Part shown: in pieces, positions 42,685-50,010 of the stretch
How the letters are laid out: every line of letters begins with the position of its first letter
Position numbering within the stretch: position 1 is the stretch's first letter
Assembly (NCBI RefSeq): GCF_900215575.1
Contig: NZ_OBEJ01000001.1
Location: 186,001-250,000, forward strand
DNA from: Natronoarchaeum philippinense
Lineage (GTDB): Archaea; Halobacteriota; Halobacteria; Halobacteriales; Natronoarchaeaceae
Length of the DNA: 64,000 bases
Reading direction: 5' to 3'
Made by a program: the position numbers and the translations under genes
Notes under the pieces: generated by a model
Told to the model about the DNA's origin: nothing
Seen by the model: the letters and a program-made list of their open reading frames with translations, nothing else
The model's database searches: none

Positions 42685-44022
42685 TTAGGGGCGTGATGTG
42701 TCTTCCGAGACGAGCGCGGCGTCGAGCACCTCCAGCGGGTGTTTGATCTCGTAGCCCGTCCCGTGGCCCATCTGCATCGCACACGTGGGACACTCCGTCA
42801 TTCCCACGTCGCCCTCGGCCGATTCCATGTGATCGAACATCTCCTCGCCGATCTGCATCGAGAGATCGTACTTCTCGACTTTCCAGCCGTAGGTGCCCGA
42901 GATGCCCGAGCAGGAGTCGCCAACGTCCTCGGCGTCGACGCCGTCGATACGGTCGATCATCTCGATGGCCTGCCCGTCGAGCCCCTGGTTGCGGGCGTGA
43001 CACGGCGCGTGGTAGGCCAGATCGGGGAAGTCGACTTCCGTGCCCTCCAGTTCGCTCGCCAGATCCTCGTGGATCCGGAGGTACTCCAAGGCCTCGTAGG
43101 TGTGTTCGGCAACGTCGTCGATCCCGTGGATGTCGAACAGTTCGGGGTACTCCTGACGCAGCGACAACGAGCAGGAGGTACAGGAGGCGATCACGTCCGC
43201 GCCCTCGCCGATCGCAGCGACGAGGTTCTCGACGTTGGTCTCGGCGTGGCGCCGCGCGTCGTCTAACATCCCGTTGGCGAACATCGGCGTCCCCGAGCAG
43301 CCCTGCTCGGGCACCATGACCTCGTAGCCGAACTCCTCGAAGACCTCCACCATCGCCTTGCCGACCTCGGGGGTGTTGTAGTTCGAGTAACAGCCGTGGA
43401 AGTAGGCCACGCGCTTGTCGGGGTTGTGGACCTGCGCGCCGCCGCGCTCGGTCCACCACTCGCGGAACGTCTGCTCGGCGAACTCGGGGAACTCGCGTTC
43501 GGACGTGACGCCCAAGACCTTCTCGCCGGCCCACTGGGTGACGCTCAGGCCGGTGACGAAGTTGGCCAGCCGAGGAACCTTGCTCGCCAGTCCGGCGAAG
43601 AAGTTGTAGTTCGAGAGGATGCGGTTGCGGACGTACTCCTGTGAGAGCTTGTCCATCTGATTCTCGACGTACTCCCCTCTGGCGGTGTTGTGCATCTGGC
43701 TCAGGGGAACGTCGGAGGGACAGGCGCTGTCACAGCGCATGCAGTTCGAGCATTTATCGATCGAGTCGTCGATGTCTTGGTCCTCTTTGCGCTTGAGGCG
43801 CCACTGTTCGGGCCCTTGGAACTTCGGCCCGGGGAAGTCGTCGTCGACCTCGGCGACCGGGCAGTTCGTATCGCAGGTCGAGCACTTGTAACAGTCGTCG
43901 GAACCGGGACGGAGGTCCATCTCCTCGGTCTCGGGGAACACCTGCACCGGCTCGAACTCGTCGTCGCCGGTCGTCGAGTCGGTCGTCACGTCGAAATCGT
44001 CGGAAGTTTCTGCATCACTCAT
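42685..44022 (-). CDS. glpC: Anaerobic-type glycerol-3-phosphate dehydrogenase subunit C
   Basis: 445 residues. Two [4Fe-4S] sites at the N-terminus: Cys44, 47, 50, 54 (CYKCSTCDTNCP) and Cys91, 94, 97, 101 (CSNCMRCDSACP). Two CCG-type domains follow, with YFHGCYSNYNTPEVGK / PEQGCSGTPMF and IASCTSCSLSLRQEYPELF / YHAPCHARNQGLD / DSCSGISGTYGWK. GlpC anchors the GlpAB dehydrogenase to the membrane and passes its electrons to quinone. The acidic N-terminal 40 residues are typical for haloarchaea. It lies 69 bases after glpB, as the last gene of glpABC. Confidence 0.93.
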   Translation of the reverse strand: MSDAETSDDFDVTTDSTTGDDEFEPVQVFPETEEMDLRPGSDDCYKCSTCDTNCPVAEVDDDFPGPKFQGPEQWRLKRKEDQDIDDSIDKCSNCMRCDSACPSDVPLSQMHNTARGEYVENQMDKLSQEYVRNRILSNYNFFAGLASKVPRLANFVTGLSVTQWAGEKVLGVTSEREFPEFAEQTFREWWTERGGAQVHNPDKRVAYFHGCYSNYNTPEVGKAMVEVFEEFGYEVMVPEQGCSGTPMFANGMLDDARRHAETNVENLVAAIGEGADVIASCTSCSLSLRQEYPELFDIHGIDDVAEHTYEALEYLRIHEDLASELEGTEVDFPDLAYHAPCHARNQGLDGQAIEMIDRIDGVDAEDVGDSCSGISGTYGWKVEKYDLSMQIGEEMFDHMESAEGDVGMTECPTCAMQMGHGTGYEIKHPLEVLDAALVSEDTSRP

Positions 44023-44091: not shown

Positions 44092-45390
44092 TCACGCGCG
44101 ATCACCCGCTTCGGAACCGGCGGCGTAGCCCGTCGCCAGCGAGATGCCCGAGCCGGATTTCTCGGCAGCGAAGTCGTAGCCGCCGACGACCGCGCCGGCG
44201 GCCCGGAGGTTCTCGTAAGCCGGTTCGTCGTCGGCGTCGAGCGGCCGGGTCTCGCGGTCGATCGGGACGCCAAAACGCGCGAAGGGGTGGTCGTCGAACG
44301 CGCCCTCCTCGAACCAGTCGTAGCGGTCCTCGGGCTGGGGGACCGGCAAGTCGAAAATCGGCTCGTAGACGCGCTCGCGGTCCGACTGGATGCCTTTCCC
44401 CACGAGCCCGCCGGTGGCGAGCACGTACTGCTCGGCGCGGTAGGGGACCCGGCTGGCGGTGTGCTCGGCGATCACGCGATCGACGCGGTCGCCGTCGGCC
44501 TCGAAGTCGACGACGGGGTTGCCGGTCGTCACGCGCACGCCGGCGTCTTCTAAGGCCTCGAACAGCATATCCGAGAGGCGCATCCCGGGGAGACTTGGCG
44601 GCCCCATCGGCACCTCGAACACCTCGGCGCCGAGCAGGTCCGACAGCGCCTCCCGCACCTCGGCGGGGTGGTCGTCGCCGAGGATCGCGGGGAAGCCGAC
44701 GCGCTCGTGACCGCTGAGACGCTCCTCGACGCGCTCGGCGAGGGCCTGCCGGACCGGCCGCGACCGGCCGTCGACCTCGACGGCGTCGTTCCGATCGAGC
44801 AGGTGTGCGTACCGGGTCAGCTTGGCGTCGTCGCGCAGATCACCGGGGAACTCGATCGTCGCGCCCCGCACGTCGAAGGGGACGCCGGCGGCGCGGAGAT
44901 GATCCGCGGCGACCAGCGCGTCGAACCCCGGCACCGATTTGAAGCCGACGAAGAAGGCGTCGCGGTCGTCGCTGGCAACCCCTGCGGCCGCGCTAGCGGG
45001 ATACCGCGCGGTCGGCTTGACCGCGCCGCCGTGGGTCGGCACCAGCGCGTTGCGGTCGGTGTGGCCGCCGACGTAGGCGTCGCCGACGACATCGTCGAAC
45101 AGGTCCAGCCCCGCTCGGACCGCGCCGGCGCCGACGCGCTCGTAGGGGTGGCCCTCCGGGACTTCCTCGATGGCCTCGAAGGGATCGACGATCGGCTCTG
45201 TTCGGCTCGCATCGTCGTCGGCGTCGGCCGGGTGGTAACCGAGCACGTCGATCAGCCCGCTGGCCTGCCGGAGCGTGCTCTGTTTGTGCGCGATCAGGCG
45301 CACGTCAGCGCCCGTCTCGCGGGCCGCGAGTGCGGACGCGACGGCGGCGACGCCGCCGCCGATCACCAGCACGTCGTTTTCAATTGCCAT
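44092..45390 (-). CDS. glpB: Anaerobic-type glycerol-3-phosphate dehydrogenase subunit B
   Basis: 432 residues from the ATG at 45390. An FAD/NAD-type Rossmann motif ([20 protein letters not shown]) begins it; [17 protein letters not shown] and a run typical of GlpB follow ([20 protein letters not shown]), and [20 protein letters not shown] near the end. GlpB binds FMN or FAD and relays electrons between GlpA and GlpC. Its first 11 bases overlap the 3' end of glpA, so the two are translationally coupled. Confidence 0.92.
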
Positions 45391-47149
45391 GCTCCCCTCC
45401 GTCGACTGGCCGACCGGACCCATCCGTCGCGCGCGACATGCTGTCGCCGGTCCCCTCGCCGCTCGACGCCGCGGCGTCCGGACGCCCGGCGTCGAACGCC
45501 GAGAAGTCGACCGACGTTCCCGTGCGCGCGGGATCGGCGTCGGCGTTGATCGTCGTCGCGTGGAGGGCGTAGTTGAGCATCGCTTGGGAGAGCTGTTCGC
45601 CCCACAGCGCGTGGCGCTCGCCCTTCCAGCGCTCTTGGAACAGTTCGTCGTAGGCGTCCCGCACCGACTGTTCGTCGTAGCGCGGCGAGAGTTCCTGTGC
45701 CATGCCGAGCGAGCAGAAGCCGCCCTGACAGTTGCCCATCGACGCGCGGGTGCGGATCCGGACGGCGTTGAGGTCGGTTCCCGACTGGTCGATCGCGTCC
45801 TGAATTTCCGCGCGGGTGACGCCTTCGCACTCGCAGATCACCGGGTTGGGCTCGCCGATGTCGAGCACTTCTTCGGCGCGACTGCCCAGCCGCTGGGTGC
45901 TCCGGCGGGCGACCGGCGAGCGCAGCCCGAACCGGTCCATAGCGTCTTCGAGTGCCATGGGATCCTCGCTGCCCGGCAGTGGCTCGTCGGCGGTGCGACA
46001 GCGCGCGCGGACGCCGAGCTTCTCGCAGACGTGATCGGAGATCTGTTCGGCCATCATCCGGTAGGTGGTGAACTTCCCGCCGACGATGGAGGACATCCCC
46101 GGCAGGTCGTCGCGCTCGTCGTGGTCCAGCAGGAAGAAATCGCGCGTGATGTCGGTCGGGTCCTCGGTGCCGGTGCCCGGCGGCTCGTACAGCGGCCGGA
46201 CGCCCCAGAACGAGCGCACGGTGCGGGCCTCCGAGAGGATCGGCACCAGTTCGGTGAGCGTGTCGATCATCATGTCGACTTCCCACTGCTCTTCGGGGTA
46301 GTCCTCGGGATCTTCGACCTCCTCGTCGGTCGTTCCGAGGATCGCCGTCGTCTCGTGGGGCACCACGATGTCGGCGTCGCCCTTCGGTCGGCACCGGTTG
46401 ATCACCGTGTCGACCTGCCGGGCGTTCATCACGACCATCACGCCCTTCGAGGGTCGGACCTCGACGTCGACGCCGGCCATCTCCCCCAGTTGGCCGGCCC
46501 ACGCGCCCGTCGCGTTGACGACGTAATCGGCGTGGAACTCCTCGGTCGTCCCCGGCGTGGCGTGCTCGCGCTTGCCCGGCCCGCTCTCGTGGCGGACCTC
46601 GACGCCCGAAACCTCCCCGTCATCGACGAGCACGTCGATCACCTCGGCGTGGGTTTCGATGCGCGCGCCGTGGTTCTCGGCGCTGACCGCGTTGGCGACA
46701 CAGAGGCGGAACGGGTCGATCGCGCCGTCGGGCACGTGTATCGCGCGCTTGATGTCTTTGGCGAGGTAGGGCTCGACTTCTCGGGCCTCCTCGGGTGAAA
46801 GCACCTCCGCGGGAATGTCACACTCCCGACATCCCTCCAGTTTCTCCCGGAAATACTCGTCGCTATCCTCGGGCCGCTGGACGAACAGCCCGCCGGTCAT
46901 CTCGACGCAGTGGCTCGCTATGTCGCGTAAGACTCTGTTTTCCTCGATACATTCCTTGGCGCTGGCTTGGTCCGAGACGGCGTATCGCCCCCCGCTGTGG
47001 AGCAGGCCGTGCATGCGCCCCGTCGTCCCGTGCGTGAGGTTCCCTTTCTCGACGAGGACGACATCGACTCCGCGCATCGCCAAGTCGCGGGCGATGCCAG
47101 TGCCGGTCGACCCACCGCCGATGACGAGGACCTCGGTACTGGTTGGCAT
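45380..47149 (-). CDS. glpA: Anaerobic-type glycerol-3-phosphate dehydrogenase subunit A
   Basis: 589 residues from the ATG at 47149. The FAD motif [20 protein letters not shown] and DAO-family [15 protein letters not shown] are at the N-terminus; [10 protein letters not shown] and [20 protein letters not shown] mark the catalytic domain; the C-terminal BFD-like [2Fe-2S] module has [15 protein letters not shown] and [13 protein letters not shown]. It oxidises sn-glycerol-3-phosphate to dihydroxyacetone phosphate. The last 60 residues are low-complexity. The gene heads glpABC and diverges from glpK across a 255-base control region with a candidate operator at 47185-47213. Confidence 0.94.
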
Positions 47150-47184: not shown

Positions 47185-47213
47185 TTTACCGCTATTCCGA
47201 GTTATCTGGTAAA
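47185..47213. promoter_or_regulatory. Candidate glycerol-regulon operator on the glpA side
   Basis: TTTACC - 17 bases - GGTAAA (47185-47190 and 47208-47213), exact reverse-complement arms; with flanking C/G they extend to 7 bases. Spacing and sequence match the operator on the glpK side (47328-47356), and both left arms continue into GCTA. It lies between 36 and 64 bases upstream of glpA. Confidence 0.55.
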
Positions 47214-47260
47214 GATCAGACGATCGAACGAAATCTGTTCCTCAAAAAAGAATCGCCCGG

Positions 47261-47266
47261 TATATT
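47261..47266 (-). promoter_or_regulatory. Possible TATA box for glpABC
   Basis: AATATA on the minus strand preceded by CGA, resembling BRE plus TATA. It would give a leader of about 88 bases containing the operator at 47185-47213. A weaker alternative is GATAAC at about 47201-47206, which gives a leader of about 28 bases. Confidence 0.35.
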
Positions 47267-47305
47267 TCGACTACTACCACCGTAAGGAACCCGTTATTGG
47301 AAACA

Positions 47306-47312
47306 TTTATAA
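47306..47312 (+). promoter_or_regulatory. TATA box for glpK
   Basis: TTTATAA; the expected transcription start is at about 47335, inside the operator at 47328-47356, and the leader would be about 70 bases, unusually long for this genome. The box is flanked by AAACAT (47301) and ATGTTT (47325), exact reverse complements. Confidence 0.55.
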
Positions 47313-47327
47313 TGAATGTGGCTTATG

Positions 47328-47356
47328 TTTACTGCTAACGCGCTACTGGCGGTAAA
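47328..47356. promoter_or_regulatory. Candidate glycerol-regulon operator on the glpK side
   Basis: TTTACT - 17 bases - GGTAAA. Together with the flanking bases the arms are GTTTACTGC and GCGGTAAAC, complementary at 8 of 9 positions. It spans the expected transcription start of glpK, where a bound repressor would block initiation. Same architecture as 47185-47213. Confidence 0.55.
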
Positions 47357-47404: not shown

Positions 47405-48943
47405 ATGGCAACCAACACCTACGTCGGCGCCGTCGATCAAGGCACGACCGGCACGCGATTCATGGTGTTCGACCACGGCGGGCAGGTCGTGGCGAACGCC
47501 TACGAGAAGCACGAACAGATCTATCCCGAACCCGGCTGGGTCGAGCACGACCCGCGGGAAATCTGGGAGAACACCAAGGACGTCATCACGCAGGCGCTAG
47601 ATCAGGCTGACATCGAGGCCGACCAGCTCGCCGCGATCGGCGTCACCAACCAGCGCGAGACGACGCTGCTGTGGGACGCCGACACCGGGCGACCGGTCCA
47701 CAACGCCATCGTCTGGCAGGACCGCCGGACGACCGATCGGATCGAACAGCTCCAAGACGAGGGCAAGGCCGACGACGTGCAGGCCAAGACGGGGCTGGAA
47801 CCCGACGCGTACTTCTCGGCGACGAAGGCGGAGTGGCTGCTCGACAACGCCGATCCGATCAAGACCGAGCGAGCCAGACCTGCGGACGTCCGGGAGCGCG
47901 CCGAGGAGGGCGAGATCCTCTTTGGAACGATCGACACGTGGGTGATCTACAATCTGACGGGCAATCACATCACCGACGTGACGAACGCGTCCCGGACGAT
48001 GCTCTTTGACATCCACGACATGGAGTGGGACGACGAGCTCTTAGAGGAGTTCGACGTGCCGCGAGAGATGCTGCCCGAAGTGCGCCCGTCCAGCGACGAG
48101 GACCTGTACGGCCACACCGATGACGACGGGTTCCTCGGCGCCGAAGTTCCCGTTGCGGGCGCGCTGGGCGACCAGCAGGCCGCGCTGTTCGGCCAGACCT
48201 GCTTCGACGCCGGCGACGCGAAGAACACCTACGGGACCGGGTCGTTCTTCCTGATGAACACCGGGAACGAGGCCGTCGAGAGCGAACACGGCCTGCTGAC
48301 GACGGTCGGTTTCCAGCGATCGGGCGAGCCCGTCCAGTACGCGCTGGAGGGTGCGATCTTCATCACCGGCGCCGCGATCGAGTGGCTCGAAGACATGGAC
48401 CTCATCGAGGACGCCGCCGAGACTGCCGAACTCGCGCGCAGCGTCGACTCGACCGACGGCGTCTACTTCGTCCCGGCGTTTACCGGGCTGGGCGCACCCC
48501 ATTGGGACCAGCGCGCACGCGGAACGATCCTCGGGATGACTCGCGGAACCCGCAAGGAACACGTCGTCCGGGCGACCTTAGAGTCGATCGCCTACCAGAC
48601 CCGCGACGTGGCCGAGGCGATGGAGGCCGACAGCGGCATCGACATGCAGTCGCTGCGGGTCGACGGCGGAGCGGTCAAGAACAACTTCCTCTGTCAGCTC
48701 CAGTCCGACATCATCGACACGGACATCGCGCGCCCGCAGGTCGACGAGACCACGGCGCTAGGATCGGCCTACGCCGCCGGGCTCGCCGTGGGCTACTGGG
48801 AGACCGCCGACGAACTCCGCGACAACTGGCAGGTCGACCGCGAGTTCGAGCCAGAGGCCGCCGGCGAGTACGAGGACAAGTACGACCGCTGGTCGGAGGC
48901 CGTCGAGCGCTCACTCGACTGGGCGCGCGACGGAGGTGACTGA
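47405..48943 (+). CDS. glpK: Glycerol kinase
   Basis: 512 residues, the standard FGGY-family length. VGAVDQGTTGTRFMVFDHGG is the first phosphate loop; PHNAIVWQDRRTT-type sequence (HNAIVWQDRRTTDRI), NASRTMLFDIHDMEWD, AGALGDQQAALFGQTCF, NTYGTGSFFLMNTG and FVPAFTGLGAPHWDQRARG follow in order. It phosphorylates glycerol with ATP to sn-glycerol-3-phosphate, the substrate of GlpABC encoded divergently. It is followed after 2 bases by a membrane protein gene, so the two are co-translated. Confidence 0.96.
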   Translation: MATNTYVGAVDQGTTGTRFMVFDHGGQVVANAYEKHEQIYPEPGWVEHDPREIWENTKDVITQALDQADIEADQLAAIGVTNQRETTLLWDADTGRPVHNAIVWQDRRTTDRIEQLQDEGKADDVQAKTGLEPDAYFSATKAEWLLDNADPIKTERARPADVRERAEEGEILFGTIDTWVIYNLTGNHITDVTNASRTMLFDIHDMEWDDELLEEFDVPREMLPEVRPSSDEDLYGHTDDDGFLGAEVPVAGALGDQQAALFGQTCFDAGDAKNTYGTGSFFLMNTGNEAVESEHGLLTTVGFQRSGEPVQYALEGAIFITGAAIEWLEDMDLIEDAAETAELARSVDSTDGVYFVPAFTGLGAPHWDQRARGTILGMTRGTRKEHVVRATLESIAYQTRDVAEAMEADSGIDMQSLRVDGGAVKNNFLCQLQSDIIDTDIARPQVDETTALGSAYAAGLAVGYWETADELRDNWQVDREFEPEAAGEYEDKYDRWSEAVERSLDWARDGGD

Positions 48944-48945
48944 GC

Positions 48946-50010
48946 ATGACGCTGGAACTGGCCGTCATGCAGGTGCCCGTGATCGGCCTCGGCTGGGAGC
49001 ACTTCCTCGTGCTCGTGCTCGCGGCCGCGGCCGGCGGCGCGTTCGGTGCCGCCATCGGCGCGCTGCCTTCGTTCGTCTTCACGGGCTTCGTCGTCCTACT
49101 TGGCGAAGGGCTAGCGGCGCTGGCCGGCGCGGGCTCGGAGTTCACCGAACTCGGCGGTGCAGACTTGGCATCCGGCGTCACCGGCACCATCGGTTTCGGT
49201 CCGGTGACGGGACCCCACGTCGCCTTCGCCGGCGGCGTCGCGGCGACATCGTACGCCGGAATGCGCTACGGCGAGATGGAGCCCGCCGACTGGGATTACC
49301 ACTTCGGGAAGAACATCCTCTACGCGTTCGGTACCAAGCCGGACATCCTCGGTGTGGGTGCCATCTTCGGCGTTCTCGGCATGCTGATCGTCCGGACGTT
49401 CAACGGTCTCGGACTACCGTTCGACACCATCGCCTTCGCCGTGTTCGCTACTGCGCTGCTCGCGCGGCCGGTGTTCGGCTACCCGTTGATCGGCAGTCCG
49501 GCCGGGAGCGGCTACCTCGACATGACGCCGTTCGAGCGCGAAGAAGAACGGGGTGACGGCAGCGGTCGACTCTCGGTCGAGCCGTGGCTCCCCCAGCAGT
49601 ACACGTGGAGCGGCGTCACGACGATCGGCCTCGTCGGCGGCGCGCTGGGCGGCTGGACGTGGATCATGACGGGCAGTATCTTCATGGCCTACGGCATCTC
49701 GGCGGCCAGCCTGCTGTTCCTGAACCTCGGCGTCGAGAACTTCCCAGTCACCCACCACATCACGCTCGGCGGATCGACGTTCGCCGTCGTCGCGGCGGGC
49801 GCGACCGGCAGTGAACTGGCTGTGATGATCGCCGCAATCTTCGGCGGCGTCGTCGGCTCGCTGCTGGCCGAAGTCACACAGCGGATCGCCTACGCCCACT
49901 CGGGCACTCACGTCGACCCGCCCGCGATGTCGATCTTCCTCTACACGCTTGCGATCGGCGTACTCTACCTGATCGGCGTACTGCCCAACTCGGGCTACCT
50001 CGGGCTGTGA
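48946..50010 (+). CDS. Haloarchaeal polytopic membrane protein linked to glpK, probable glycerol uptake component
   Basis: 354 residues, with about nine hydrophobic segments; a soluble loop of about 35 residues (PFEREEERGDGSGRLSVEPW) divides two halves. It does not have the NPA boxes of aquaglyceroporins. TGTIGFGPVTGPHVAFAGGV and NFPVTHHITLGGSTFAVVAAG are the most striking intramembrane blocks, with conserved-looking Pro and His. It follows glpK by 2 bases. I recall that haloarchaeal glycerol operons encode membrane proteins of unproven function beside glpK. A transport role is inferred only from the operon. Confidence 0.85.
   Translation: MTLELAVMQVPVIGLGWEHFLVLVLAAAAGGAFGAAIGALPSFVFTGFVVLLGEGLAALAGAGSEFTELGGADLASGVTGTIGFGPVTGPHVAFAGGVAATSYAGMRYGEMEPADWDYHFGKNILYAFGTKPDILGVGAIFGVLGMLIVRTFNGLGLPFDTIAFAVFATALLARPVFGYPLIGSPAGSGYLDMTPFEREEERGDGSGRLSVEPWLPQQYTWSGVTTIGLVGGALGGWTWIMTGSIFMAYGISAASLLFLNLGVENFPVTHHITLGGSTFAVVAAGATGSELAVMIAAIFGGVVGSLLAEVTQRIAYAHSGTHVDPPAMSIFLYTLAIGVLYLIGVLPNSGYLGL

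Follow-up and report, generated by a model that had tools for sequence, protein, structure and literature searches.

Two inverted repeats between the divergent glpA and glpK genes of Natronoarchaeum philippinense appear to be the operators of a dedicated regulator of glycerol catabolism, and the protein most likely to act through them is an Orc1/Cdc6-like protein encoded in the same locus (probability roughly 0.75, judging from sequence comparison). Both sites lie in a 64,000-nucleotide stretch of the genome, referred to here as the window. Computation establishes the operator as a conserved site with a set position, located almost exclusively at glp genes and strictly associated with the Orc-like gene. 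The original prediction had proposed a specific regulator and left it unnamed; the candidate put forward here is the Orc1/Cdc6-like gene with which the glpABC cluster ends.

The glp Locus and Its Two Operators

The gene assignments proposed earlier for this locus, with glpA, glpB and glpC running leftward from 47149 and glpK rightward from 47405, are correct (Table 1). The start of glpA was taken from the sequence as the ATG at 47149. The Orc-like gene begins 16 nt past the glpC stop, directly downstream of glpABC. The open reading frame that follows glpK gave no family match in Pfam or NCBIfam and is possibly a glycerol or glycerol-phosphate transporter; a gene for this membrane protein is found near glpK in 106 of 129 haloarchaeal genomes. 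An undecaprenyl-phosphate translocase-like gene (PF04018; 40448-41485, plus strand) is convergent with the Orc-like gene, and its homologue is present in 19 of the 80 named loci described below.

Table 1. Genes, promoter elements and operators of the glp locus in the window.
Feature	Coordinates	Strand	Sequence or basis
Operator 1, glpA side	47185..47213	.	TTTACCGCTATTCCGAGTTATCTGGTAAA; 29-bp dyad TTTAC-N19-GTAAA
Operator 2, glpK side	47328..47356	.	TTTACTGCTAACGCGCTACTGGCGGTAAA; 29-bp dyad TTTAC-N19-GTAAA
glpK BRE/TATA	47299..47313	+	GGAAAC ATTTATAAT, full string GGAAACATTTATAAT; textbook BRE/TATA
glpA, anaerobic glycerol-3-phosphate dehydrogenase subunit A	45380..47149	-	TIGR03377, 758 bits, above cut-off
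glpB	44092..45390	-	NF003722, 707 bits
glpC	42685..44022	-	NF008369, 593 bits
Candidate regulator, divergent Orc1/Cdc6-family AAA+/winged-helix protein, 383 aa	41517..42668	-	Homology, operator co-occurrence
glpK, glycerol kinase	47405..48943	+	TIGR01311, 721 bits
Uncharacterised membrane-protein-like ORF, immediately 3' of glpK	48946..50010	+	Commonly glp-linked

The two repeats have the same arms and the same spacing, exactly at the positions first reported for them. Counted from the start codons, operator 1 is 36-64 nt upstream of glpA (predicted ATG) and operator 2 is 49-77 nt upstream of glpK. The placement of operator 2 over the expected transcription start is borne out by the promoter, as the TATA box of glpK (TTTATAAT) occupies 47306-47313 and the dyad starts 14 nt after it. 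The left arms were also said to run on into GCTA, which is true of both sites in the window, but GCTA is not strictly conserved in relatives.

Exact matches to TTTACY-N17-GGTAAA in the whole 3.16 Mb genome (11 contigs) are limited to the two glp sites, so that the genome search suggested by the original prediction returned nothing outside the glp promoters. The looser pattern TTTAC-N19-GTAAA likewise matches exactly at these two sites only, and the one-mismatch list for the genome holds no additional exact match. A reversed control pattern gave 0 matches in the same 3.16 Mb, as did the operator pattern in shuffled windows.

Conservation and Geometry of the Operator

In a scan of 59 relatives, TTTACY-N17-GGTAAA was found in 20 genomes, with many of the matches beside glpA or glpK. 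A sample covering the whole order was then used, in which glpK could be located in 129 of 156 genomes and the DNA upstream of glpK was compared in all 129. Among the 99 genomes of this set that bear the Orc-like gene, 45 have TTTAC-N19-GTAAA as an exact match within 450 bp of glpK, and 72 have it when one mismatch is allowed. The remaining spacings between 8 and 27 gave 0-3 matches each upstream of glpK in the same 99 genomes, spacing 24 excepted. The peak at spacing 24 was rejected as a second class of motif; it is the repeat TTTACTTTAC, a repeated TTTAC half-site at the glpA copy. The conserved unit is a 29-bp dyad, TTTAC-N19-GTAAA. It is found again in promoters of glpK, glpA or both in genomes from the whole order, and the expected conservation upstream of glp genes in relatives thus holds order-wide.

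At glpK the dyad is part of a larger arrangement. The 63 distinct glpK sites share a consensus with gGaAA.aTTTATAATG as its BRE/TATA part, which in longer form reads gGaAA.aTTTATAATGAa.Gtc..TatTG|TTTACtg.tA..gCGgcaccg.caGTAAA. The dyad thus keeps a fixed position relative to the TATA box and lies over the expected start. In relatives, the sites on the glpA side stand a short way before that gene and, read on its strand, are extended to GGTAAAGTAAAG; they showed no conserved TATA box.

Variation in the dyad is informative as to its symmetry. Halorubrum-type loci have both arms altered together, to TTCAC-N19-GTGAA, in all nine sampled genomes of one genus (g7) and in seven named loci; the arms have thus changed symmetrically, as a two-fold symmetric binder would enforce. 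A second, weaker dyad is found 52 bp upstream of the main glpK dyad in six Haloarcula loci (L300, L301, L306, L308, L313, L318) and 50 bp upstream of it in f12 genomes, and in both groups it runs into the BRE. Secondary, unlinked copies of glpK in genomes bearing the Orc-like gene are without the operator. Genome G003 (L242:2235-9869) and the matching cluster of G005 have three glpK copies in one cluster, with the operator only at the copy divergent from glpA.

Specificity for glp Genes

Across 36 genomes bearing the Orc-like gene, 47 of 61 exact matches lie at glp, which leaves 14 elsewhere, against 22 for the reversed control. The 14 genomes examined that do not have the Orc-like gene gave three pattern matches, none at glp (both sets of counts were tallied by hand from the table). 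Outside glp the pattern is thus no commoner than its reversed control, and the original prediction passes this test as well. A wider central-carbon regulon had also been envisaged and was not found, non-glp matches being at chance level; the regulon looks to be glp-only. Halostella-type matches near a glycosyltransferase gene (L014-L016, L024) were rejected as a target, as they fall inside a conserved coding stretch. Matches near a TrmB-like gene (L010) and between glucosidase genes (L019, L020) were likewise set aside, with the non-glp total no higher than the control. The latter are exact TTTACY-N17-GGTAAA sites between tandem alpha-glucosidase-like genes, at L019:1501-1529 and L020:1501-1529, in both sampled genomes of genus g3.

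Co-occurrence of the Operator with an Orc-like Gene

A gene for an AAA+/winged-helix protein was noticed between glpA and glpK in some relatives, and its homologue in the window is the candidate regulator of Table 1. Of the 99 genomes with this gene, 96 have it no more than 8 kb from a glpK. Three main arrangements occur, in which the gene follows glpABC, follows glpK or directly precedes glpK. Eighty named loci found through the protein, from genera including Halostella, Halorussus, Natrinema, Natronorubrum, Haloarcula, Halorientalis and Halalkalicoccus, contain glpK in 75 cases and an operator beside glpA, glpK or the Orc-like gene in 64.

When the region up to glpA is included, 80 of the 99 genomes that have the gene also have the operator, and 0 of the 30 that do not have the gene (Fisher p = 9.4e-17, which is not a true tally of independent events because the genomes are related). 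When the operator label was shuffled within families or genera, the observed association was reached 0 times in 20000. It is also seen inside single genera, where the operator is found in 7/7 genomes with the gene vs 0/8 without in g19, and in 4/4 vs 0/3 in g27. Part of the co-occurrence could come from the cluster having been inherited as a unit. Shared descent of the glp genes is not the whole explanation, however, because the membrane-protein gene does not bring the operator with it: 16 genomes have this gene near glpK and no Orc-like gene, and none has the operator, whereas seven genomes with the Orc-like gene and no linked membrane gene do have it. The same distribution led us to reject the membrane protein as the factor linked to the operator.

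The association is not complete in one direction. Nineteen of the 99 gene-bearing genomes are without an operator of at most one mismatch; nine of these are Halorubrum-type genomes with the symmetric variant, and some others have degenerate dyads. No clear dyad was seen in the two f10 genomes with the Orc-like gene, nor in G122, which has the Haloferax-type gene order. In G105 the Orc-like gene is 1.3 Mb from glp; glpK there carries the operator, and no operator that would point to autoregulation was found at the remote gene. Some genomes have second, more divergent Orc-like copies away from glpK (L234-L239), one of which (L234) adjoins a copy of the membrane-protein gene.

A Divergent Orc1/Cdc6 Protein

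The Orc-like protein is a member of the Orc1/Cdc6 superfamily, with an AAA+ domain and a winged helix. It scores above the cut-off for AAA_16 and slightly under it for Cdc6_lid (26.0 vs 27), and a profile of 32 homologues has Sulfolobus Cdc6-1 (2qby_A, E = 1.5e-27) as its top match in the PDB. A confident AlphaFold2 model (mean pLDDT 89.3) was used for a Foldseek search, in which the top matches were all archaeal Orc1/Cdc6 proteins, several of them solved on DNA.

Several features expected of an initiator are lost. On the initiator model TIGR02928 the protein scores 80.8 bits, below the curated cut-off of 181.3, whereas several further proteins encoded in this genome exceed it with 313-440 bits. 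In an alignment with six Orc1 proteins of the same genome, the insertion carrying the initiator-specific motif is present in all six and deleted from the glp-linked proteins, in which the sensor-1 Asn is also lost and the sensor-2 Arg is replaced by His. Walker B of the glp-linked proteins is D164-H165, invariant in 32 aligned members and without the catalytic glutamate, while the six Orc1 proteins have DE in five cases and DD in one. Most Natrialbaceae homologues (L249-L293; residues 62-72 in the window protein) have Thr at the position of the Walker A Lys. The protein is probably not a replication initiator, because both the initiator-specific motif and the catalytic Walker-B glutamate are missing. 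In Halorubrum, Lys/Gln of the recognition helix is changed to Arg alongside the changed operator arms; this is seen in one clade plus two MAGs and was not used as evidence.

Proposed Mechanism and Alternative Explanations

Since the operator is found only in genomes with the Orc-like gene, the Orc-like protein is probably the missing switch protein for glycerol. We infer direct binding, binding as a dimer, repression, an inducer and autoregulation. A symmetric assembly of two protomers would grip each 29-bp dyad by its two TTTAC half-sites. Bound at glpK, the protein would block RNA polymerase, because the dyad is over the start site and just downstream of the TATA box, and binding near glpA would likely block glpABC together with the Orc-like gene. 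When glycerol or a product such as glycerol-3-phosphate accumulates, the protein would leave the DNA, and glpABC-orc as well as glpK and the downstream membrane-protein gene could then be transcribed. The regulator would control its own gene, as this gene sits inside the regulated cluster. Conservation at glp promoters, with matches elsewhere no commoner than the control, supports the specific glycerol regulator of the original prediction, and the start-site position is consistent with its probable role in repression. More tentatively, the protein may be an Orc1/Cdc6 paralogue turned into a single-locus, metabolite-responsive repressor, which has lost the initiator-specific motif and ATP hydrolysis and whose old nucleotide pocket, with Thr for the Walker A Lys in most Natrialbaceae, might sense glycerol-3-phosphate or a related metabolite.

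The same protein could instead activate transcription from the dyad. Activation of DNA-repair genes is known for Sulfolobus Orc1-2 (PMC9738581), and the weaker dyad next to the BRE, 50-52 bp upstream in Haloarcula-type and f12 genomes, would suit such a role. We consider activation unlikely, since the common glpK site is downstream of the TATA box and over the start, where a bound archaeal regulator usually represses, as described for the TrmB family (PMC10817205).

It is quite improbable that another, unlinked regulator, for example of the TrmB, Lrp or IclR family, binds the dyad while the Orc-like protein is a passenger or otherwise employed. Co-occurrence does not equal binding, other winged-helix regulators of the genome could act as binders, and G105 retains the operator though its Orc-like gene is unlinked. 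Yet the association is exclusive across 129 genomes and holds both within genera and against another glp-linked gene, and the Orc-like gene stays with glp in three different positions. For Haloarcula, the TrmB motif has been published as a partial palindrome of 19 bp, and glpA is not mentioned in the main text of that paper. TrmB-family sugar regulators of archaea belong to another protein family and have a different motif (19 bp), but they also use palindromes positioned in promoters, with position deciding between activation and repression.

Haloarchaea have a known carbon regulator in GlpR, a repressor of the DeoR family (PMC12853182), and the genome of the window encodes one strong DeoRC protein (G000:C2:348025). 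Haloarchaeal and bacterial GlpR share with the proposed system the logic of a local repressor of carbon-use genes. GlpR as the binder was rejected as very improbable, being largely refuted by its distribution: 41 of 80 operator-bearing genomes are without a strong DeoRC match, and several genomes with GlpR but no Orc-like gene have no operator. It is also of a different protein family, and in haloarchaea it is described as a repressor of fructose and glucose genes (PMC12853182). A replication origin located by chance between glpA and glpK, with the dyads as its Orc-binding boxes, is scarcely credible, although origin recognition boxes are the normal targets of Orc1/Cdc6 proteins. There are only two copies of the dyad, both locked to promoters, and they are found at glp clusters whichever of the three gene arrangements is present. 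The Orc-like protein is moreover without the initiator-specific motif and the catalytic Walker-B glutamate, and other Orc1/Cdc6 genes of the genome, at least six, are intact.

Comparison with Known Orc1/Cdc6 Proteins

The nearest precedent for the proposed regulator is Orc1-2 of Saccharolobus islandicus, a non-initiator Orc1/Cdc6 protein that acts as a global transcription regulator of the DNA-damage response (PMC9738581). Both are AAA+/winged-helix proteins of the Orc1/Cdc6 family, and transcriptional regulation, known for Orc1-2, is proposed here for the glp-linked protein. Orc1-2 retains the initiator-specific motif and Walker B, and ATP hydrolysis is vital to it (PMC9738581), whereas the glp-linked protein is without both features. 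Orc1-2 controls hundreds of genes, while the glp-linked protein appears to have one target locus.

In Haloferax volcanii, orc15 (HVO_1537) is listed as a Cdc6/Orc1 replication initiator in a table without functional data (PMC2841640). It is four locus tags before glpK (HVO_1541) and, at 1203 bp, is similar in length to the window gene; a gene order orc, glpABC, glpK is seen in G122. Position and length suggest that orc15 is probably an orthologue of the glp-linked Orc-like gene. A literature search for orc15 with Haloferax, thin on subscription papers, found only the genome paper (PMC2841640).

Implications

Glycerol is a main carbon source in salt lakes. In Haloferax, the mechanism that activates glycerol metabolism is still not fully understood according to a 2025 paper (PMC12853182). 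The present result provides a concrete operator and a concrete candidate gene for glycerol control. It is also relevant to the abundance of orc genes in haloarchaea: probably at least one of these paralogues, widespread and annotated as an initiator of replication, regulates metabolic transcription, and inferences about origins and initiators drawn from orc gene counts may therefore need correcting.
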